47,061 nt of DNA from Pseudobdellovibrionaceae bacterium (lineage in GTDB: Bacteria > Bdellovibrionota > Bdellovibrionia > Bdellovibrionales > UBA1609). Positions 6,031-44,996 of the stretch are shown in pieces. Where the stretch lies: positions 1-47,061 of the forward strand of contig JABJQG010000008.1 in assembly GCA_018663505.1 (NCBI GenBank), given 5' to 3'. A program made the position numbers and the translations under genes. Within the stretch, counting starts at the first letter, position 1. Each line of letters starts with the position of its first letter. Under the pieces are notes generated by a model. The model saw nothing but the letters and a program-made list of their open reading frames with translations, made no database searches and had not been told where the DNA came from.

Positions 6031-6444
6031 ATGGCAGAAGCATCATTTGGTACACCTAGATACGGAATTACAAAAAATTTAGGAGCCATTGACTTTACTG
6101 AGGCGCGAACAAAAACTGAGGCGGCATTAAAAGAAAATGGTTTTGGTGTGTTAACAGAAATAGATGTTGCTAAGACGCTGAAGACTAAAATTGATGTGGA
6201 TATGGATTCTTATTTGATATTAGGAGCTTGTAACCCTAAGCTTGCACACCATGCTATTTCCAATGAAATGGCAATTGGCCTGCTCTTACCGTGCAATGTT
6301 ATTTTAGCTAAAGATAAAACAGGCGACGTTATGGTATCTGCTGTGGAGCCTGTGGTGATGTTTGATGTAGTGCAGCGCCCAGAAATGGAGCCCGTGGCAC
6401 AAGAGGTTAAGTCTTTACTGCAGAAAGCAATTGATAGCTTATAA
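6031..6444 (+). CDS. DUF302 family protein
   Basis: Small cytoplasmic protein of 137 aa with a single DUF302 domain. Residues around GFGVLTEIDV and SYLILGACNPKLAHHAI match the family core, whose conserved cysteine lies in the GACNP segment. The biochemical function of DUF302 is not established. The start is placed at ATG 6031 because GGAG lies 6 bases upstream. A longer frame from a TTG at 6019 would place the ribosome binding site inside the gene. The gene stands alone. Its ribosome binding site is in the hairpin at 5985-6024, which suggests translational or transcriptional control. A structured repeat (family 2) begins immediately after the stop codon. Confidence 0.88.
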   Translation: MAEASFGTPRYGITKNLGAIDFTEARTKTEAALKENGFGVLTEIDVAKTLKTKIDVDMDSYLILGACNPKLAHHAISNEMAIGLLLPCNVILAKDKTGDVMVSAVEPVVMFDVVQRPEMEPVAQEVKSLLQKAIDSL

Positions 6445-6552
6445 ACTTTTTTTATTGGACTCTTTAAAACACAAAGTGCCCCTTTTGGGGTGAGGCCATG
6501 ATGGCCGAATTTTAAATAGTTAGAGCCAGGAAGGCTCACTGTTTGTCTGAAA
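6445..6552 (+). repeat. Family 2 structured 3'-UTR repeat, copy 1
   Basis: It begins directly after the DUF302 stop codon. In gene sense the parts are: a T-run, TTTAAAA (6463-6469) pairing with TTTTAAA (6510-6516), enclosed hairpins CCCC-TTTT-GGGG (6479-6490) and GGCCA-TGA-TGGCC (6494-6506), then GAGCC-AGGAA-GGCTC (6523-6537). Its reverse complement aligns along most of its length with 27200-27306. The enclosed hairpins differ in sequence there, but base pairing is kept. Confidence 0.75.
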
Positions 6553-6588
6553 TACCAAGAAAATAGACATACATTTTGCACAAAAAAA

Positions 6589-6614
6589 GCCCATATATAG
6601 ATATGGGCTTTTTT
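6589..6614. terminator. Bidirectional Rho-independent terminator
   Basis: GCCCATAT (6589-6596), loop ATAG and ATATGGGC (6601-6608) form a perfect 8-bp stem. It is flanked by an A-run on the left and TTTTTT on the right, so it can work for both the DUF302 gene (+) and the converging metalloprotease gene (-). Confidence 0.9.
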
Positions 6615-6634
6615 ATTTTAAAATATTTAGCTTA

Positions 6635-27161: not shown

Positions 27162-27205
27162 GGAGTGATTTGTGAGAGAGCTGGGTAGTTTGGAGTTACG
27201 TACTT

Positions 27206-27306
27206 CAAGCAAACAGTGAGCCTTCCTGGCTCTAATTATTTAAAACTCGGGCTCCTGCCCTCGCTCTTTCAGAGCGCTTCGCGTTTTAAACAATCTAATA
27301 AAAAAA
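27206..27306 (-). repeat. Family 2 structured 3'-UTR repeat, copy 2
   Basis: It begins directly after the stop codon of the 27307-28020 gene and reads in that gene's direction. TTTAAAAC/GTTTTAAA (27239-27246 and 27283-27290) is a perfect 8-bp outer stem enclosing hairpins GGGC-tcct-GCCC (27249-27260) and GCTCT-ttc-AGAGC (27263-27275). The invariant hairpin GAGCC/GGCTC (27218-27232) follows, with loop AGGAA in gene sense. It is the best preserved copy, and it also lies downstream of the converging mltD gene. Confidence 0.78.
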
Positions 27307-28020
27307 TTAATGAGCTTTTTTTCTTCCTAGCTTAAGTGCTTTTGAAGCTGAGAAATTATATTCTTCTAAAAACTGAAAAGTTCTAGGGTTACAATCAAAA
27401 TCATCTACTTTTGCTTGGTGAATAATTTTAAATTTATTCTTATTGAATATGATTCTTCCAGATAGTGAGAATATAGATTCCCTTAGGTTGTCTCCCACAT
27501 CTAAATAAATCATTTGTTTCTCTTCATCAAATAGAAAATTAGACAGATACCTTCCCCCATCTATAACAAGAGCATTGGCACTTTTAAATTCTACTTTTTT
27601 AGAGCTTAAAGAAACACTTTTTGATTCTTTTTTAAGTTTGGCTATGTTGTTACAGTTGCCGTATTTTTTTGTACTTAGTTTTTTAAAAGTCCATATTTTT
27701 CCTTTAAGTTTGTCGAAAATTTGTTTTTTAGTAAATTTCTTTTTTACTATTCTTTTTGTTTTTAATAATGAATCCTCTTTAAGGGTCATGGGTTGGAATT
27801 CTTCCAGCTGGTCATCACTATTCCCTTTTTTTGAGTCCTCTAGACGTTGAGCTACCTTTATATTTTCATCAATCAAATTTTTGAGCTGTGCTTTGATTCT
27901 CGCTTGTTCTAATTGGTATTGCTCTATTAACGTGGGTGCCACTAAGAAGACACCTGTTAATATAATAGCCACCAAAATAACTGAAGCTGTGAATTTATTT
28001 TTAAAAAACATGGATTTCAT
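27307..28020 (-). CDS. Membrane-anchored protein of unknown function
   Basis: 237-aa protein with one N-terminal transmembrane segment (about 9-29), then a charged coiled-coil-like stretch (30-60), a Lys-rich middle, and a beta-rich C-terminal part with two cysteines (in GNCNN and DFDCNP). It probably faces the periplasm as a signal-anchored protein. ATG 28020 is chosen because AAGGGAG lies nine bases upstream; a longer frame from 28044 has no such site and adds eight residues. I recognise no family. It is flanked by two copies of the family 2 repeat in the same orientation. Confidence 0.7.
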   Translation of the reverse strand: MKSMFFKNKFTASVILVAIILTGVFLVAPTLIEQYQLEQARIKAQLKNLIDENIKVAQRLEDSKKGNSDDQLEEFQPMTLKEDSLLKTKRIVKKKFTKKQIFDKLKGKIWTFKKLSTKKYGNCNNIAKLKKESKSVSLSSKKVEFKSANALVIDGGRYLSNFLFDEEKQMIYLDVGDNLRESIFSLSGRIIFNKNKFKIIHQAKVDDFDCNPRTFQFLEEYNFSASKALKLGRKKAH

Positions 28021-28136
28021 TGGCTTTTTCTCCCTTGAAGTCATCGTTTTATATATTTAGCTATAAAAGTTGCAATAGGAGGGCCACTTATGTGTTCTAA
28101 AATGAGACAGGTGGTTTGAGGTTGAGTATTTCACCT

Positions 28137-28173
28137 TTTCAGAGCACTTCGCGTTTTAAACAATCTAATAAAA
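28137..28173 (-). repeat. Family 2 repeat, copy 3 (partial)
   Basis: This copy has only the stop-proximal part. The bases from TTTTCAGAGC through GTTTTAAACAATCTAATAAAA are nearly identical to 27269-27303, with one substitution and a short A-run difference. It abuts the stop codon of the 28174-30009 gene. The distal half, including the GAGCC/GGCTC hairpin, is not recognisable in 28045-28136. Confidence 0.7.
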
Positions 28174-30009
28174 TTAATATGGAGGGATTTGAGGAGAGTT
28201 TGTTTTATTGTGGGATTTAAAGCTTGCTGCAGATGGATCAATAGCAGCAAGTTGTTCCTGTGCCTCTTTAAGATCTGCGAGAAAGCCCTCCTTAGTAGTG
28301 TGCTCAAAATAGGGAGCGAATTCTTCTACGTGCTCTCTGTAGTATGCTATAGCCGATTCTAAGTTGGTTTTGTAACTGAGAAAGTAATCATCTTTTTTAC
28401 TGATGATTCCAAGTTGGGTCTGTGTGATCTCACGAATTAAATAACTGATATATAAATTGAGTTCATTTATAAATACATGATGTCTTTTAGGGTTAACCTC
28501 AACATCGCTGGTTTTACCATTGATGTGTTTTACCATATTTACAAGGTTAGTGGGCTTAGAGAAATGGATGGTGTTAGGCCCACAACATATGCAAGGAGAT
28601 GCTTTTGGATCGATACTAAGAAGGCCAGTTGCCGTACCTGCAAGGTCATGACAAATACAAGCTTTTGCTAACATTAATGTGTTTCTAATTTCTCTTTGCT
28701 CTTCTGTATAATCACCAGCATTATTTTCTTTAAGCTTTTTTCTTTGGTAGCCTTTTCCTGCTGTACAAATAGCAACTTCTGAAAACTCAGTGTTGGAAAC
28801 TAAGAATCCTTTTGGGCAAGCGCTGCCAGGTTTGCCGCTGGCGATTCGTTCTAGTCTTAAGATCTCTGAACCCGCGGTTTTTAGATTCCAGAAGGGGACT
28901 CCAAGAGGTGAGGCATTGCTAAGGTGTACGTCGGACTCTGTGGCCTCTGATAGCTTATCCAAATGGCCTGGATCCATGTTTACGGCATCTTTAACAAACA
29001 AAAAGGGAGAGCCCCAACCTACTTGATCGATGGGGTAAACTTCCCTTAATAACCTATCTTCAGAGTGATGAGCAATGCCGCCTTGAAAAGTCACTCTTAC
29101 TTTTGCCTGTTGTTCTGTAAGCATAGGCTTATTTAGCTTTTCACAGGCCGATTGGTAGACCTTGTAAAGAGACTGCTTGAGCTCCTCTCCTTTTTGTCGG
29201 AATTCTTCCATGGTTGGGCCCATAACTAAACCTTCTGTGGCAAAAGCGTGACCACCACAGTTTAGCCCAGACTCTATGCGGAACTCAAAGGGCCAAATTC
29301 CTTTTTTAGCAAAGAACTTGCCTTGAATAAAAGAAGATCGATAATCACTGACTTTTATAATCACTTTTTTGCGTATGTGACCTTGGTTGTCTGGAAAAAA
29401 TTGATCAAAGGTTGCAAGATATGTATATAAGGGGGCATTCATCCCGGCAGAAAATATTATTGCCGAATCAAGGTCGCTTTCTGCAAAACCTCTAAAGGCA
29501 AACAAAGCATCATTGTATTCTTTAGGTAGCGCTTCTTTTTTAAAATAATTCACACGGTTTAACTTCGTCATGATATTTACATCAATTCGGCCAAGCTCCA
29601 TGCTATTAATGAGTTGTGACTGCATTTCTGCTTTTTTACCTGTATCAGTTTCATTGACATAAGCATTAAATAGCTGGGTTGTTTCGCTATCAGGTTGTAC
29701 CTCAAAATATTTATAGAGGTCAGTGCCAGGCTCCAACTGTTGTGTTTTCATTTGGGCAAAACGAAGGTTTACTTTTTTATTTATCAGGTTCAGGTATCTT
29801 TTTACTCGATCTGCTCGCCAGTTTTTGTGAGTGCGCTCAGAAATTTCTTCATAATCAAGATTATCTTGTTCACAATAGTGCTTGAACATTTGCTCAATAA
29901 ATTTGTCATCCACAACTGAGATAACTGAGGAAATGCCAAATGGCGCTACCTTTAAAGGGGTATCTATTGTGAAACCTGTGCCCATAACGGGTATATAGAA
30001 ATTATGCAT
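28174..30009 (-). CDS. Large conserved-looking protein with cysteine cluster, function unknown
   Basis: 611-aa soluble protein with no signal peptide or membrane segment. Near the start is GTGFTIDTPLKVAPFGISSVISVVDD, which resembles the opening strand-loop of FMN-dependent TIM-barrel enzymes. Further on are SGLNCGGHAFATEG, reminiscent of the GxEAGGH motif of nitronate-monooxygenase-like proteins, then GGIAHHSED and QVGWGSPFLFVKDAVNMD. At about residues 450-480 is a cysteine cluster, CICH followed about 20 residues later by CICC, which could hold an iron-sulfur cluster or a metal. The enzymatic assignment is a weak inference from motif shape. The start ATG at 30009 has only GAG upstream. It is transcribed alone. 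Confidence 0.6.
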   Translation of the reverse strand: MHNFYIPVMGTGFTIDTPLKVAPFGISSVISVVDDKFIEQMFKHYCEQDNLDYEEISERTHKNWRADRVKRYLNLINKKVNLRFAQMKTQQLEPGTDLYKYFEVQPDSETTQLFNAYVNETDTGKKAEMQSQLINSMELGRIDVNIMTKLNRVNYFKKEALPKEYNDALFAFRGFAESDLDSAIIFSAGMNAPLYTYLATFDQFFPDNQGHIRKKVIIKVSDYRSSFIQGKFFAKKGIWPFEFRIESGLNCGGHAFATEGLVMGPTMEEFRQKGEELKQSLYKVYQSACEKLNKPMLTEQQAKVRVTFQGGIAHHSEDRLLREVYPIDQVGWGSPFLFVKDAVNMDPGHLDKLSEATESDVHLSNASPLGVPFWNLKTAGSEILRLERIASGKPGSACPKGFLVSNTEFSEVAICTAGKGYQRKKLKENNAGDYTEEQREIRNTLMLAKACICHDLAGTATGLLSIDPKASPCICCGPNTIHFSKPTNLVNMVKHINGKTSDVEVNPKRHHVFINELNLYISYLIREITQTQLGIISKKDDYFLSYKTNLESAIAYYREHVEEFAPYFEHTTKEGFLADLKEAQEQLAAIDPSAASFKSHNKTNSPQIPPY

Positions 30010-30970: not shown

Positions 30971-31037
30971 TGATGCATGTTTATGTAAGAGCATCAGAAT
31001 TATGACGCTAAGCTAAACCATAAGGTACGGCGTACCT
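30971..31037 (-). repeat. Family 1 structured repeat, copy A
   Basis: It begins at the stop codon of the outer-membrane-protein gene at 31038. Palindrome: AAGGTACG (31022-31029), one G, CGTACCTT (31031-31038). Then, in minus-strand sense, come GGTTTAGCTTAGCGTC, a loop, and GATGC (a 5-bp stem with one G-U pair), then CTGATGC...GCATCAG (30970-30998). Between convergent genes it probably terminates both yihY and the OMP gene. Confidence 0.75.
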
Positions 31038-32120
31038 TTAAAATATGTAGCTGAATTCTAGTTGGATGGATTTTTGTAAGGGGAGGTCTTTGTCTAATTG
31101 GCTGTAATGTCTTTCGTTAAAGCTGAGGGTGGTTTGCAGTTCTCTTAAAAGAAAAGAACCACCAATGTTGTAACGGTCAGAGGAAAGCATGGCAAAGTAT
31201 GAGATATTCTTAAAGCGTGTTTGACTGGTTAAAGTTAAACCTTGTTTGATTTCTCGGTTGCCTCTGTGAGTTAAGCCTACATCCCAAGTGAAGCTTTTGT
31301 CATAGGGGGTTGCGCCCAGGCCAAAAATTAATAATGGCTGTGTGTTGCTTCCTTCAATACGTTGATCGGTCATTTCCCAATTTTTAATCACTGCTGAAAA
31401 TCGTGTACGCCAAGAATCTTCATTAAAATACGCGTATCCTGGTTCGAAAGAAATGGCATTTTGTGTGTTTATTTGTAAGATTTCTTCTTTCCCCAATGTG
31501 GCTTGTAGAAAAGAAAACTCATCTTGTATGACTTGTCTTTTGATTAACCGTATTTTTAGACCAAAAGAATTATTTTCGTTAACATGCCCGCCAATAACTC
31601 CGGCAATACTTTGCTCGCTTTGAGTTTGAATGGCAATCACTGGGTTGGATGAGTCGCGTGATAAAATCCATACAGATTCTTTGTATGGGATCACCTCTAG
31701 TCCAAAGGTTTTATAACGAAAACTCAGTTGTAAGTTAGATTCGGTATCGACCATATCGGTTTTATCAAATAGAGATTTGCTAAAGTCATAATTTTTATTA
31801 TTTTTAATAAGCTCAGCACCTTTATTTACAAAATTTTGATCATCGTCAGTCATATAACTCATTTGAAAAAATTTACCTTCAACTTCGCCCATAAACGCAG
31901 GGTTACAAGGTAAAACTTGCTGTAAACCAAGCATGACATTGCAAGCATCACCGAGAGCAATTTCATAGAGATTATTTTGAGAGGATCGACTGGATAGGGC
32001 TGGTGCCAGACCCATATAAAGATCAGTGCGTGAATGTGCAAAGTTTGGCAATAATAATGAACATATTAAAAATATAAAATATTGAGAAGGTGGATGTTTA
32101 GGCTTTGGTTTTATGGGCAT
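31038..32120 (-). CDS. Predicted outer-membrane beta-barrel protein
   Basis: 360-aa exported protein: basic N-terminus, hydrophobic stretch FIFLICSLLLPNFAHS as signal peptide (cleavage about 30), then many alternating amphipathic strands (SFGLKIRLIKRQ, SWRTRFSAVIKNWEM, FTWDVGLTHRG, NIGGSFLLREL), ending in EFSYIF. The terminal aromatic Phe is the classic Bam recognition signal of outer-membrane barrels. Two cysteines near 59-73 may form a disulfide. It overlaps the upstream lipoprotein gene by 10 bases, so the pair is co-translated. Substrate or function is unknown. Confidence 0.75.
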   Translation of the reverse strand: MPIKPKPKHPPSQYFIFLICSLLLPNFAHSRTDLYMGLAPALSSRSSQNNLYEIALGDACNVMLGLQQVLPCNPAFMGEVEGKFFQMSYMTDDDQNFVNKGAELIKNNKNYDFSKSLFDKTDMVDTESNLQLSFRYKTFGLEVIPYKESVWILSRDSSNPVIAIQTQSEQSIAGVIGGHVNENNSFGLKIRLIKRQVIQDEFSFLQATLGKEEILQINTQNAISFEPGYAYFNEDSWRTRFSAVIKNWEMTDQRIEGSNTQPLLIFGLGATPYDKSFTWDVGLTHRGNREIKQGLTLTSQTRFKNISYFAMLSSDRYNIGGSFLLRELQTTLSFNERHYSQLDKDLPLQKSIQLEFSYIF

Positions 32121-40366: not shown

Positions 40367-40604
40367 AATTGTTCCCCCAAAAATTCATTTAGTAACTACC
40401 CTTGATAAAGCAAGTTCTGTGCCTTTCTAATAGGGTTTAAACACAGAATGAGTATTCGGAAAATGAAGCCAACATATAAAAACATTTAAATTTATCTAGT
40501 AACCTATTGAATTACTGGATTATATTTGATTATGAATAGAGTCTTTACAGTGTTATTTATATTTACGTATCGTTTTGAGACTTTAACTTGTTGTTGGTGA
40601 ATCA
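40367..40604. other. Intergenic spacer upstream of the PA14 lipoprotein gene
   Basis: Together with copy B of the family 1 repeat this forms a 338-base gap. Outside the repeat I see only AT-rich sequence, which should hold the PA14 gene's promoter. I found no open frame with a ribosome binding site. Confidence 0.4.
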
Positions 40605-40704
40605 GAAGTGCCAACTAACATGATGAAAGTGGCACTGATAGTTGACCTTTAACTAATGAACATCCTTATGACGCTAAGCTAAACCAAAAGGTACGGCGTA
40701 CCTT
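40605..40704 (-). repeat. Family 1 structured repeat, copy B
   Basis: It starts in the stop codon of the universal stress protein gene. Palindrome: AAAAGGTACG (40686-40695), one G, CGTACCTTTT (40697-40706). Then, in minus-strand sense, come GGTTTAGCTTAGCGTC, a short loop and GATGT (stem with two G-U pairs), then AGTGCCA...TGGCACT, a perfect 7-bp hairpin (40607-40636). It is probably the terminator of the usp gene. Confidence 0.78.
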
Positions 40705-41631
40705 TTAGGATATGTGCCAGACTATTACTGGTAGGGGGCTTTGGCGGATGACTTCTCTGGCAATGCTGCCTACTAGTACGGTGTCCATAGTGCTGGAGAA
40801 AGACGGCATGTAAATGAGGTCACAGTTGTTTTCTTTGGCTGTATTTACAATGCTTTCTGCCATGGGATGGGCGCTGTCATCAAGAATGACTTCCGTTTTA
40901 ATATCTAAGGATTTGGCGCTGTCCTGCCAGTGAGCGGCTTGTTTCTCTTTATTCAGGGACTGGTCCTCGTAATACTGGTTTAAAGAAATAGGACCACCTC
41001 CAAGCATCACAGAAGTACTGGAATAAAATGAAGTTTCTGGGTGAAAATACTTTGAGTAGAGAACAACCTGCTTGGCTGTATTAAAACTCTGTTCTAAGTA
41101 GTCATCAAATACTGGTTTTGAAGAAGCAAGGAGGTCTGTGGGGTAAAGTCCCTTATTAAGTGCATTCACCTTATCTGTATGAGGTGAGATAAAAGCCATA
41201 GGTGTTGAACACTGTAATAAAAGATTTTCTGCAAAGCTGCCAATAAAAAATCTTTCAAGACCCTTTTGTGCATGAGTATTTACCACAAGAAGGTCAATAC
41301 CATCTAAACTCTTAGCCATGATACTAGCATCAGACCGTTTAGAGCCAGTTGAAGATTCAATGATTTCTGGTGCGTTGAAGGATTCTCTTGTATCTAATTC
41401 TTTGAGCTTCGCCAAGCATACTTCTGAAATAGTATGGTACATATCCACACCTTCATAGGCCATACTTTTAGTGACCCAATCACTGACTTCGGATCCCATT
41501 ACATATGTGGGTATAACTTCTGCTTCTTTGGAGTCTTGCATATTGTAGAGAAATTCAACTGCACGGTGCCAAGTATTTTCTTGTTTAGTAAAAGGGTCAA
41601 AGGCCCATCTGATTTTCATTTTTTGTTTCAT
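40705..41631 (-). CDS. Universal stress protein with two Usp domains
   Basis: 308-aa cytoplasmic protein made of two UspA-like halves. The first half ends around LVVNTHAQKGLERFFIGSFAENLLLQCSTPMAFI; the second ends DLIYMPSFSSTMDTVLVGSIAREVIRQSPLPVIVWHIS. Both show the GS-(F/I)-A-E/R closing motif of the Usp nucleotide site. The usual first glycines of the G-2x-G-9x-G(S/T) pattern are replaced in the second half (PSFSSTMDTVLVGS), so ATP binding there is doubtful. The function is stress tolerance in general terms only. AAGGGG lies upstream of the ATG. The stop codon overlaps the family 1 palindrome. Confidence 0.85.
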   Translation of the reverse strand: MKQKMKIRWAFDPFTKQENTWHRAVEFLYNMQDSKEAEVIPTYVMGSEVSDWVTKSMAYEGVDMYHTISEVCLAKLKELDTRESFNAPEIIESSTGSKRSDASIMAKSLDGIDLLVVNTHAQKGLERFFIGSFAENLLLQCSTPMAFISPHTDKVNALNKGLYPTDLLASSKPVFDDYLEQSFNTAKQVVLYSKYFHPETSFYSSTSVMLGGGPISLNQYYEDQSLNKEKQAAHWQDSAKSLDIKTEVILDDSAHPMAESIVNTAKENNCDLIYMPSFSSTMDTVLVGSIAREVIRQSPLPVIVWHIS

Positions 41632-41945
41632 TGTTTACCCCTTTGTTAGGTTATGTATATCATGAACATCAACCATATGGGGATGAATTATCTTGTGTTT
41701 TATGCTGATTTGCATCATGAATAACGTGTTCAGGGCAAGGGATCAGTTTTTTAAATCAGTGTTCTCTCTTTGCAAAAGGTAAGAAGCCAATAGCTTGCTT
41801 AAAGGCTTTTTTAAAAATTAATCATTGTAAAGGAGTTGTGAGCCTTCCTGGCTCTAGTTCTTTCAGAAAAGTACACCTATCCACAAAGTCTATGAGGAGC
41901 AAGAAAGAACTTAAAAAGAATGGCTCAGAGATAGGTCATTCAAAA
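41632..41945. other. Intergenic region with family 2 hairpin
   Basis: This 314-base gap lies between the usp gene (-) and the lipoprotein gene at 41946 (-). It holds the usp promoter region and the family 2 partial copy at 41836-41857. I see no gene. Confidence 0.5.
41836..41857 (-). repeat. Family 2 hairpin, copy 4 (partial)
   Basis: GAGCC (41840-41844), TTCCT and GGCTC (41850-41854) on the plus strand read as GAGCC-AGGAA-GGCTC downstream of the lipoprotein gene at 41946. It lies about 90 bases past the stop; in copies 1 and 2 the same hairpin is 74-78 bases past the stop. The flanking TGT and TA are also shared. The outer stem and inner hairpins of the complete copies are not recognisable here. 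Confidence 0.6.
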
Positions 41946-43358
41946 CTATTTATATATGATTTTTAGTTTTAAATCTTTGTAATAGTTTTCAGGATCAATA
42001 TCTCTAAGCACATAGGCCACTTGATCCGCCGTAAGACCAGAGTCCGCATTGGCTTTATGTCTCATTGTTAGGGTGGTATTAAAGTATATAATGTTGGTGC
42101 CACTGATATTCAGCGAGGTAGCCCCATTGTTTAAATGCTTGGTTTCTGAAGGTAGTGTGCTTTGTCCAATTAAATACGGGGAGCTGTAAGCCCTCGATTT
42201 ATTCTCTAGTGCATCATTACCCAATTTATAGAAGGGCATGATCTGTTTAAGGGATGTTTCACTAGAAAGACTAATAAATTTTTCAGGATTAGTTAGAAAA
42301 CAAAGCCAGCCACAAGACCCATAAATAATATCAGGATCGCTACCAAATAATCCGGTCATAGCATTTGTGGAATAGATGTAACTGCTGTCAAAATCATAAG
42401 CAAAACGATAGTTTTTATAATATTGAAACTGATGATTTGTAGGTTGTGAGTCTTCTGCTGTAGCTATGTCTTCAGGGTGCACAATATTAAGAGTTCTGCT
42501 TACGCAAACATCACCAACAGCTGAGGAATTACATGTGTTATACTCATAGACCCCATCGCTATTAGAGTCAGAAACTTGGCTAAGAATTCCGTTTTCTGTG
42601 TGATAATCAAATATTTCTGGATTTTCTATGGAGATACTTTCAATTTGATCTAGATCTCTTAAATTAAATTTATATGTTCCCTGTATAAAGTAGCTAGAAA
42701 CAGAGGCAGGAATGGCCACAACATAGTAGACAGGTGGGGCTGTATAAATATTTGAATGAGAGGTCTGGGGGATCGTCAAATAGACGATTTTGTGGTTTGT
42801 TTCATCTGTGACTATTTGTGGAAGAAGTTGGTTTTCTAAACCTGCAGGTTCTCTTAAGGGAAGGCTCCCTGTGGCCGTAGTTAGTGTTTCATAATAGATG
42901 CCTTCATCAATGCCTTGAAGATCAAACGGAGGTGTAGGGTCTACAATATCAGGAGAGGTTGTTGTTATAAAAAAAGTTGTATTGATAGAGCTGTTAGTCA
43001 CAGTGTCGGTTATTTTCAATAAATAACTATCTGTTTTTGCAACCTCTTGGGCAAGAAAATTAAGAATGCTATCTGTGCTTAATTCTGTGTAGCTACTATC
43101 ATCATTTCTTAAACTCCAAGATACATCATAGGGGTTGGTGGCCATCACTGAAAAATGAATATTGATACTGGTACCTGTGGTCACTGTGTATTGATTTTCC
43201 GGGCTATAGCTGAACTCAAGAACAGCTGGTAATTGGCTACTGCTACTGACAGTGGGAGGTTGCATTTCCACATCTAGTGGAGCTGCACAGTTTTGGAATA
43301 ACAAAATAAATGATGTGATAGTGAATATATGTAGAGTACTCCAATTTAATTTTTCCAT
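41946..43358 (-). CDS. Lipoprotein of unknown function with Ig-like start
   Basis: 470-aa lipoprotein with N-terminus ending LLFQNCAAP (acylated Cys at 24). The mature part opens with a beta-sandwich-like domain (about 45-135; EFSYSPENQYTVTTGTSINIHFSVMATNPYDVSWSLRND), followed by a long beta-rich domain with five cysteines, including CNSSAVGDVC and CGWLC. I do not recognise the large domain. AAGGGG precedes the ATG. The FQNC lipobox is shared with the PA14 lipoprotein nearby. It is probably outer-membrane or surface located. Confidence 0.72.
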   Translation of the reverse strand: MEKLNWSTLHIFTITSFILLFQNCAAPLDVEMQPPTVSSSSQLPAVLEFSYSPENQYTVTTGTSINIHFSVMATNPYDVSWSLRNDDSSYTELSTDSILNFLAQEVAKTDSYLLKITDTVTNSSINTTFFITTTSPDIVDPTPPFDLQGIDEGIYYETLTTATGSLPLREPAGLENQLLPQIVTDETNHKIVYLTIPQTSHSNIYTAPPVYYVVAIPASVSSYFIQGTYKFNLRDLDQIESISIENPEIFDYHTENGILSQVSDSNSDGVYEYNTCNSSAVGDVCVSRTLNIVHPEDIATAEDSQPTNHQFQYYKNYRFAYDFDSSYIYSTNAMTGLFGSDPDIIYGSCGWLCFLTNPEKFISLSSETSLKQIMPFYKLGNDALENKSRAYSSPYLIGQSTLPSETKHLNNGATSLNISGTNIIYFNTTLTMRHKANADSGLTADQVAYVLRDIDPENYYKDLKLKIIYK

Positions 43359-43769: not shown

Positions 43770-44519
43770 TTGAAATTATTTAAAAGCTTAGTACTAGCAC
43801 TAACTATTATTTTTATGGTGGGTTGCATAGAAGTTGATTTTGAAACATCTGAAAGAATCTTTTCTGAATCAAGATCCCCTTCAACTGAAGAGCTTCAAGA
43901 TTTTGTGGGTTTATCTCGAGGAAGATGTATAGATTCTAAAAATATAGTGGATAACTCTATTTTGTACTTTGCCTATGAAAAAATTGATGCCGAAAGTTCT
44001 GAAGAAAAAGAAACACATATCTATTATGGACATAATTTTACTGAAAAAAATGATAAATATAGCGTAGATTTGGTTGATTTATACTACAAAGATGCTGGAA
44101 AGCCTGTTGAAGACTCTGGTTTTTTTAGTAAAATGCAAAATTTCGCTAACGGACGAGACAATAGTAAATACTTTAAACCAGTATCAGGAGTTTTTGGTAG
44201 TTATGGGAACTTCTCTAATGGTTCTTATGTAGTTGGTAGTGATTACTCTATTAACCATAAACTTTACTACTTCCCTAATATTGTAGGATATATCAATAGA
44301 ACATCTTATAAGAATAAATACAAAACTGAGTATCGAGTAGCTTCAATTGGTGGCGTTATCTCAAAAATTTCTTTTTTAAAAGTTGAGCAATTTAAGAAAA
44401 GGAATCAAAGCAGACCTAGGCCTATTGAGATGTATTGTTTTTGGTACGACAAAATTGTGGATAAACACCAATTTCCAGAGAGTCGACAAGGCCCAACAAT
44501 AAATCTAAACAATAATTAA
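43770..44519 (+). CDS. Lipoprotein of unknown function
   Basis: 249-aa lipoprotein starting MKLFKSLVLALTIIFMVGC (Cys 19). The mature part is Ser/Tyr/Asn/Lys-rich with two further cysteines (GRCID and MYCFWYD) and no motif I can name. The start is TTG at 43770, with a GGGGG stretch upstream and the signal sequence directly after it. It is transcribed alone. A family 1 palindrome begins 10 bases after the stop. Confidence 0.68.
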   Translation: MKLFKSLVLALTIIFMVGCIEVDFETSERIFSESRSPSTEELQDFVGLSRGRCIDSKNIVDNSILYFAYEKIDAESSEEKETHIYYGHNFTEKNDKYSVDLVDLYYKDAGKPVEDSGFFSKMQNFANGRDNSKYFKPVSGVFGSYGNFSNGSYVVGSDYSINHKLYYFPNIVGYINRTSYKNKYKTEYRVASIGGVISKISFLKVEQFKKRNQSRPRPIEMYCFWYDKIVDKHQFPESRQGPTINLNNN

Positions 44520-44996
44520 GCGGCTGAACCAAAAGGTACGGCGTACCTTTTGATTTACTTGTGTATTGATAGTGTTCTTGGTTGCTCCTATTTATCGGCC
44601 GGCATCCACAAAAGATGCCTGTGCACTTATTTTGAATTTTATGAACAAGTTGTTTGGGTGTTAGAGCCTATTAAATTTTTTACACTTTACAGAGCCACCT
44701 TGCGCGATGAAAGTAGCACTGAAAGTTGATCTTCTAATTAAGAGCATCATTATGACGCTAACCTGTACCAAAAGGTACGGCGTACCTTTTGGTACAGGTT
44801 TTGCTACTACCCAAACCGTAGAAGATAATATGCTTATTTTGACATTTTCAGGTGCCATAAATCAAGTTTTTATACTTTACAGTGCCACCTTGCACGATGA
44901 AAGAAGCACTGAAAGTTGATCTTCTAATTAAGAGCATCATTATGACGCTAAGCTAAACCAAAAGGTACGGCGTACCTTTTGGTTCAGGCCCCTAGT
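44520..44996 (-). repeat. Tandem array of family 1 repeats (copies D, C, E)
   Basis: This 477-base region has three family 1 palindromes in the same orientation. D: AACCAAAAGGTACG (44956-44969), G, mirror arm to 44984, 14-bp arms, just after the stop at 44997. C: CCTGTACCAAAAGGTACG (44762-44779), G, mirror arm to 44798, 18-bp perfect arms. E: CAAAAGGTACG (44530-44540), G, mirror arm to 44552. D and C also share about 65 nearly identical bases on the left side (44881-44944 and 44691-44754). E is truncated against the lipoprotein gene's 3' end and may serve as its terminator. Confidence 0.8.

Follow-up and report, generated by a model that had tools for sequence, protein, structure and literature searches.

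The window, a stretch of 47,061 nt from the draft genome of a bacterium of the order Bdellovibrionales, carries two copies of the same structured element, each lying in gene sense after a stop codon. As originally predicted, copy 1 follows the stop codon at 6442-6444 (+) and copy 2 is found at the stop codon at 27307-27309 (-); both copies share 78% identity over ~120 nt (E 5e-19). Two shorter pieces of the element are present as well, and the following features were assigned:

6446-6556 (+): copy 1, structured core, a 5'-truncated copy of a MITE, directly past the stop of a DUF302-domain gene ending at 6444
6458-6469 (+): copy 1, outer stem, 5' arm GACTCTTTAAAA, pairing with 6510-6521 in a stem of 12 bp
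6470-6478 (+): copy 1, hairpin 1, CAC-AAA-GTG
6479-6490 (+): copy 1, hairpin 2, CCCC-TTTT-GGGG
6494-6506 (+): copy 1, hairpin 3, GGCCA-TGA-TGGCC
6510-6521 (+): copy 1, outer stem, 3' arm TTTTAAATAGTT
6523-6537 (+): copy 1, hairpin 4, GAGCC-AGGAA-GGCTC
27196-27306 (-): copy 2, structured core, 3' of gene 27307-28044 (-)
27275-27283 (-): copy 2, hairpin 1, CGC-GAA-GCG
27169-27208 (-): copy 2, conserved tail at its 3' end (TTGAAGTACGTAACTCCAAACTACCCAGCTCTCTCACAAA), which shares homology with the 3' portion of the full MITE
28131-28181 (-): truncated copy, 5' half only, providing gene 28174-30009 (-) with its stop codon (28174-28176)
41838-41863 (-): remnant with hairpin 4 only (hairpin at 41838-41855), ~90 nt past the stop at 41946

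The hairpin arms had been given correctly in the original prediction. It described two enclosed hairpins, both of which are present, and overlooked a third inside the outer stem, namely CAC-AAA-GTG in copy 1 and CGC-GAA-GCG in copy 2. Sequence conservation extends beyond hairpin 4. One of the two partial copies that had been proposed is indeed a 5' half, whose TTAATTTTATTAGA contains the stop codon of gene 28174-30009 (-); similarly, the TAA stop of gene 27307-28044 (-) is the TAA within TTAATTTT..ATTAGA of copy 2, so that in two window copies the preceding gene terminates at the TAA of TTAATTTTATTAGA. The other proposed partial copy, at 41946, is reduced to hairpin 4 and, being located ~90 nt beyond the stop, does not directly follow a stop codon. 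The element does not have the form of an intrinsic terminator: no T-run stands directly 3' of hairpin 4, where ACTGTTTGTCTGAA is found instead. A separate terminator-like hairpin is present downstream of copy 1 (6583-6615).

The whole draft genome (3.78 Mb in 72 contigs, from an order of predatory bacteria) yielded 37 blastn matches to copy 1. The covariance model search proposed with the original prediction was run with a model built from 28 copies and gave 43-46 matches in this genome, of which ~30 cover the entire core. The identity of 78% between copies and their number in the genome exclude chance. The core is organized as a 12-bp outer stem enclosing three small hairpins, followed by a fourth hairpin. 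Its consensus starts with TTAATTTTATTAGA and the outer-stem arm GACTCTTTAAAA, continues with the interior CRC GAA GYG - CYC TGAAA GRG - CGA - GKGC AGGA GCMC - GAG, and ends with the outer-stem arm TTTTAAAGAGTT, A GAGCC AGGAW GGCTC and ACTGTTYGTTTGAA.

The pairing is kept across copies while the letters change. In the 28-copy alignment, 95.9% of the pair cells hold standard pairs, compared to 89.4% upon shuffling and no more than 47% when the partner columns are shifted by up to three positions, and nine pairs have changed on both sides. Since the copies are related to one another, covariation was assessed against a tree-based null with an R-scape-like test (own script), in which the substitutions of each branch were redistributed over the columns on the tree to give 40 null alignments. 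The predicted covariation of the secondary structure was borne out: out of 5,886 column pairs, the four with the best scores all belong to the structure, far beyond chance, although only two of them are individually significant. They are spread over four different helices, i.e., pair 27-33 in hairpin 1 (E = 0.025), pair 16-75 in the outer stem (E = 0.025), pair 51-61 in hairpin 3 (E = 0.2) and pair 36-45 in hairpin 2 (E = 0.68). A comparison of copy 1 with its closest relative (contig C10, position 2965) reveals exactly one compensated pair in hairpin 1, CAC/GTG versus CGC/GCG. In longer copies, two additional hairpins are found in a 5' module, and one of them covaries strongly; pair 107-136 of this module occurs as AT, TA, GC and CG, and pair 116-126 as TA and AT.

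The element that had been predicted is the structured core of a ~305-bp MITE. Complete copies start with GGCTCTGGTGCAAATTTGTGGG and end with CCCACAAAAAAGATAAAGACCT, and the copy on contig C50 measures 305 bp. Start and end have TTTGTGGG in common and form imperfect inverted repeats of ~22 bp (GGCTCTGGTGCAAATTTGTGGG versus AGGTCTTTATCTTTTTTGTGGG), which also share GGnCT. In many copies, one end or both have been lost. Five insertions show target duplications of 8-9 bp; in two cases both sides lie within one contig, and in three they are found on separate contig ends without a physical link. The former are TAAAAACTG/TAAGAACTG at the C50 copy and CCATTCATT on both sides of the copy at L131; the latter, read as two sides of one insertion, are CATTTTCTG (C4/C31), TTAAAACTG (C17/C60) and ACCCCTTG (C46/C16). 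The 305-bp unit contains neither an open reading frame of useful length nor a transposase gene. Short, without a transposase gene, present in many copies, and bounded by terminal inverted repeats and target duplications, it is a MITE. On one contig (C49; L006, 1643-2060), a second tandem MITE copy has ~130 foreign bases in place of hairpin 3 and part of the outer stem.

A possible source of transposase is found in the same genome. The left end of a resident multi-copy IS (GGTTCAGGTGCATATTTGTGG) is identical to the left end of the MITE at 18 of 21 positions, the left end alone having been compared. This IS breaks the assembly at five places (L138-L142, at the ends of contigs C3, C4, C12, C19 and C49), with a left end GGTTCAGGTGCATATTTGTGGG and an open reading frame starting with MRPQIYI, and one of its insertions directly follows the 3' end of a MITE. 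The contigs break off within the IS, so that the body and right end of this putative parent are absent from the draft. Its first 136 bp have no plasmid match, and ends of the MITE/IS type occur in none of 46 other genomes of the family. An IS6/IS240 transposase was considered as parent and rejected, the only PF13610 match looking like an IS3-type gene pair. By sequence, the MITE and IS ends together with the 9-bp duplications resemble those of ISAba12-type elements, which have GGCTTTGTTGCA.. ends and 9-bp duplications (PMC6382973).

The copies are not randomly placed relative to genes. The tally was made by hand with each gap counted once, on mechanically called open reading frames, so that single assignments can be wrong. 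Past a stop codon in the sense of the gene lie 28 of 38 copies, compared to ~18 expected from the gap-type counts (p = 8e-4 against 0.47), which upholds the predicted location at gene ends. The other ten sites are antisense to, or upstream of, the neighboring genes. Twelve copies are located between convergent and four between divergent genes, while in tandem gaps 16 copies follow the sense of the genes and six are antisense, a borderline bias (p = 0.05). REPs elsewhere likewise favor gene ends and convergent gaps (PMC3733652).

This distribution bears on what maintains the fold. According to the original prediction, the element is a structured 3'-UTR RNA at several genes that stabilizes, ends or processes transcripts, in which case a MITE origin would only be its means of spread. 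The dispersed covarying structure and the sense enrichment at gene ends have held up and agree with such a role, as do the 16:6 ratio in tandem gaps, the 5'-truncated copies right at stop codons and the effect of ERIC and YPAL on mRNA (PMC2229807). Departures from standard pairing in the outer stem also point to RNA, with 39 G-T and no A-C cases, mainly in two columns common within subfamilies. The fold is, however, not better kept at gene ends than elsewhere: pair integrity averages 0.939 past stops in sense (n = 22) versus 0.940 among antisense and upstream copies (n = 8, a small sample; p = 0.59). The inner hairpins show no strand bias (seven G-T versus eleven A-C), and the preference for gene ends is shared with the REPs mentioned above. 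Folding z-scores are stronger for single-stranded DNA (-3.0 to -6.2) than for RNA (-2.6 to -3.4), and copy 1 reaches the consensus fold as DNA, not as RNA. In many copies hairpin 1 is the mini-hairpin CGCGAAGCG, and hairpin 2 carries GNA triloops (GAA/GCA/GTA) in several subfamilies. The MITE ends with 8-9-bp duplications and the folding as DNA, at least as strong as that as RNA, further speak against the 3'-UTR reading, which we regard as unlikely. The integrity independent of gene position, the lack of strand bias in the inner hairpins and the DNA-favored folding instead favor selection on the element over a role in the host 3' UTR, and it is probably selection on the mobile element, rather than a 3'-UTR job, that keeps the fold. 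A putative role of the element at 3' ends or in mRNA stability is possible.

With a probability of roughly 0.7, we propose that the predicted element is the core of a ~305-bp IS-derived, non-autonomous MITE that is moved in trans, whose fold is kept by element-level selection and whose copies survive past genes. The copies, terminal repeats, target duplications, covariation and placement bias behind this proposal were observed directly. A transposase acting in trans, probably that of the resident IS with similar ends, would insert the MITE with an 8-9-bp target duplication. The MITE would bring along its series of small hairpins, located within a long stem and next to it, and selection on the element, as single-stranded DNA or cruciform or as RNA, would preserve pairing despite drift in sequence. 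Copies inserted between a promoter and its gene are presumably purged, which would leave copies mainly downstream of genes. There, they would be transcribed as part of a 3' UTR or between cistrons, in some cases with a stop codon provided by the element, and, like ERIC, they may have incidental effects on mRNA ends. Among the points that count against this MITE account are ~15 copies that lack the 5' module or 5' half, yet have a good core and start near TTAATTTTATTAGA, a pattern not expected from simple insertion followed by decay; the core may spread by itself, or its 5' part may be lost at gene ends.

Two other identities are very improbable. A REP/REPIN element mobilized by a RAYT transposase might be suspected from the approximately eight Y1/RAYT genes in the genome, one of which has a copy of the present element (family 2) ~100 bp away. 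Around seven of the eight genes, however, the inverted repeats belong to other families (AAGGTACG.., AGGTGCCAG..), the nearby copy lies within one such unit and looks like a coincidence, and in 14 genomes of the order the RAYT genes do not stand beside the hairpin head motif described below. RAYT/REP mobilization was rejected as the RAYT genes are flanked by other repeats. One of those flanking families (AAGGTACGCCGTACCTTTTGG) is the other repeat family of the window (AACCAAAAGGTACGGCGTACCTTTTGGTT; 30999-31039, 40590-40714, 44510-44557, 44674-44798 and 44864-44988), which, matching the RAYT-flanking inverted repeats at L129 (AAGGTACGCCGTACCTTTTGGTTTAGC), looks like an ordinary REP/RAYT family. 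Equally improbable is a putative sponge titrating CsrA by GGA in hairpin loops. The loops of hairpins 3 and 4 often read CAGGA, but a loop base varies freely (AGGA, ACGA, ATGA); GGA is not kept and the sponge was therefore rejected.

The original prediction knew of no described element of this form. This agrees with Rfam, where the window gave no match above the gathering score and the loci gave only sub-threshold matches at chance level, but the broad form is already known from ERIC, YPAL, NEMIS and REP (PMC2229807, PMC3733652). By analogy, the element appears to work like ERIC, YPAL and NEMIS, i.e., as a short structured mobile repeat able to end up in mRNA. It belongs to none of these three, differing in length, ends, duplication and architecture according to published descriptions (PMC2229807). 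ERIC/IRU of enterobacteria and Vibrio and YPAL of Yersinia are short, non-coding, dispersed and mostly intergenic repeats as well, with predicted folding in mRNA, target duplications, a positional bias and a possible effect on mRNA stability (PMC2229807, PMC2267715). However, ERIC is a single long stem-loop of 127 bp formed by its ends, with TA termini, and YPAL has 168 bp and variable duplications, whereas the element described here has 305 bp, GG..CC ends, 8-9-bp duplications, and several small hairpins plus an enclosed three-hairpin stem, with no sequence relation apparent from the published descriptions (PMC2229807). NEMIS/Correia of Neisseria, also a MITE bounded by terminal inverted repeats, gives structured transcripts and exists in variants of different size that contain or lack an internal part, but it measures 107/155 bp, has TA ends and derives its structure from the terminal repeats, while the structure here is internal. 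MITEAba12/ISAba12 of Acinetobacter is likewise an IS-derived MITE, with GGCTnTGnTGCA-type ends, 9-bp duplications and copies sometimes fused to a gene 3' end; MITEAba12 has 113 bp and highly conserved copies, and the accessible part of its description reports no covarying multi-hairpin core (PMC6382973). REP/BIME sequences with RAYT share the preference of palindromic repeats for gene ends and convergent gaps (PMC3733652), yet consist of 20-40-bp units with GTAG/CGTC tags and are RAYT-linked, which the present element is not. A purely structural resemblance exists between hairpin 1 (CGCGAAGCG) or the hairpin 2 triloops and the d(GCGAAGC) mini-hairpin, an exceptionally stable single-stranded DNA form (PMC4686876). 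What this genome offers is a bacterial MITE with compensatory changes across its whole interior, the fold being kept and the letters not, and copies at different genomic positions that help to separate element-level selection from a host 3'-UTR function.

Elsewhere, none of 84,980 GTDB species genomes and 2.9 million viral contigs contain the exact core, in collections from which records close to the own genome may be left out, and plasmids and phages gave no match to the element. Among 46 other genomes of the family a single match was obtained, weak and structurally different. The relaxed pattern GAGKGCAGGAGCMCGAGTTT retrieved three loci, two of them apparently coding or due to chance and the third on a contig of Bdellovibrionia bacterium Co_bin.56 (G009), which belongs to the same family as the window. 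Covariance model matches outside this genome had E values of 1e-5 to 3e-7, and those in other genera at E of ~1e-5 were not accepted as homologues because L090, with a similar score, appears to be coding and is likely a false match.

A hairpin head, CGAGGGCAGGAGCCCGAG (as GGCAGGAGCCYGAG), is more widespread and covered by no RNA family. It is found in 24 of 141 genomes of the order, approximately six-fold over the reversed control. At least eight intergenic loci follow the same plan, with small hairpins inside near-perfect outer stems of 10-35 bp and of unrelated sequence, and two copies in one genome (L105 and L118) show compensating differences. The core might belong to an older, order-wide class of branched hairpins with a conserved head and a changing outer stem that was captured by the MITE. 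We hold this suggestion, drawn from these occurrences, only tentatively, since the covariance model matches outside the own genome are weak and stable hairpins could arise by convergence. Somewhat more doubtful still is its extended form, an old class with a conserved head of GNA- and ANGA-capped small hairpins and a freely changing outer stem. The pairing of the head would be maintained independently of sequence and position, the head would work by itself as single-stranded DNA or cruciform or as RNA, and a MITE would have captured it in this genome.

Individual loci have features of their own. Within ~100 bases either side of GGCAGGAGCC, the loci L091, L103, L105, L112, L113, L118 and L084 form branched hairpins of very high stability (reaching -116 kcal/mol over 165 nt) with the CGAGGGCAGGAGCCCGAG head and near-perfect outer stems. 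A hairpin of a similar kind is located just past the 3' end of an apparent DNA polymerase I gene in two genera, represented by the own genome (L025) and genome G082 (L089), in opposite orientations, which may be a coincidence. Locus L108 (1-320) is a tandem array of ~101-nt units of the hairpin head with short, differing stretches in between. The IMG/VR contig IMGVR_UViG_3300006467_000143 (L147, 11530-11710) carries the head as CCCGAAGGGGCGAGGGCAGGAGCCCGAG beside a possible GCTGAA/TTTCAGC closing stem.
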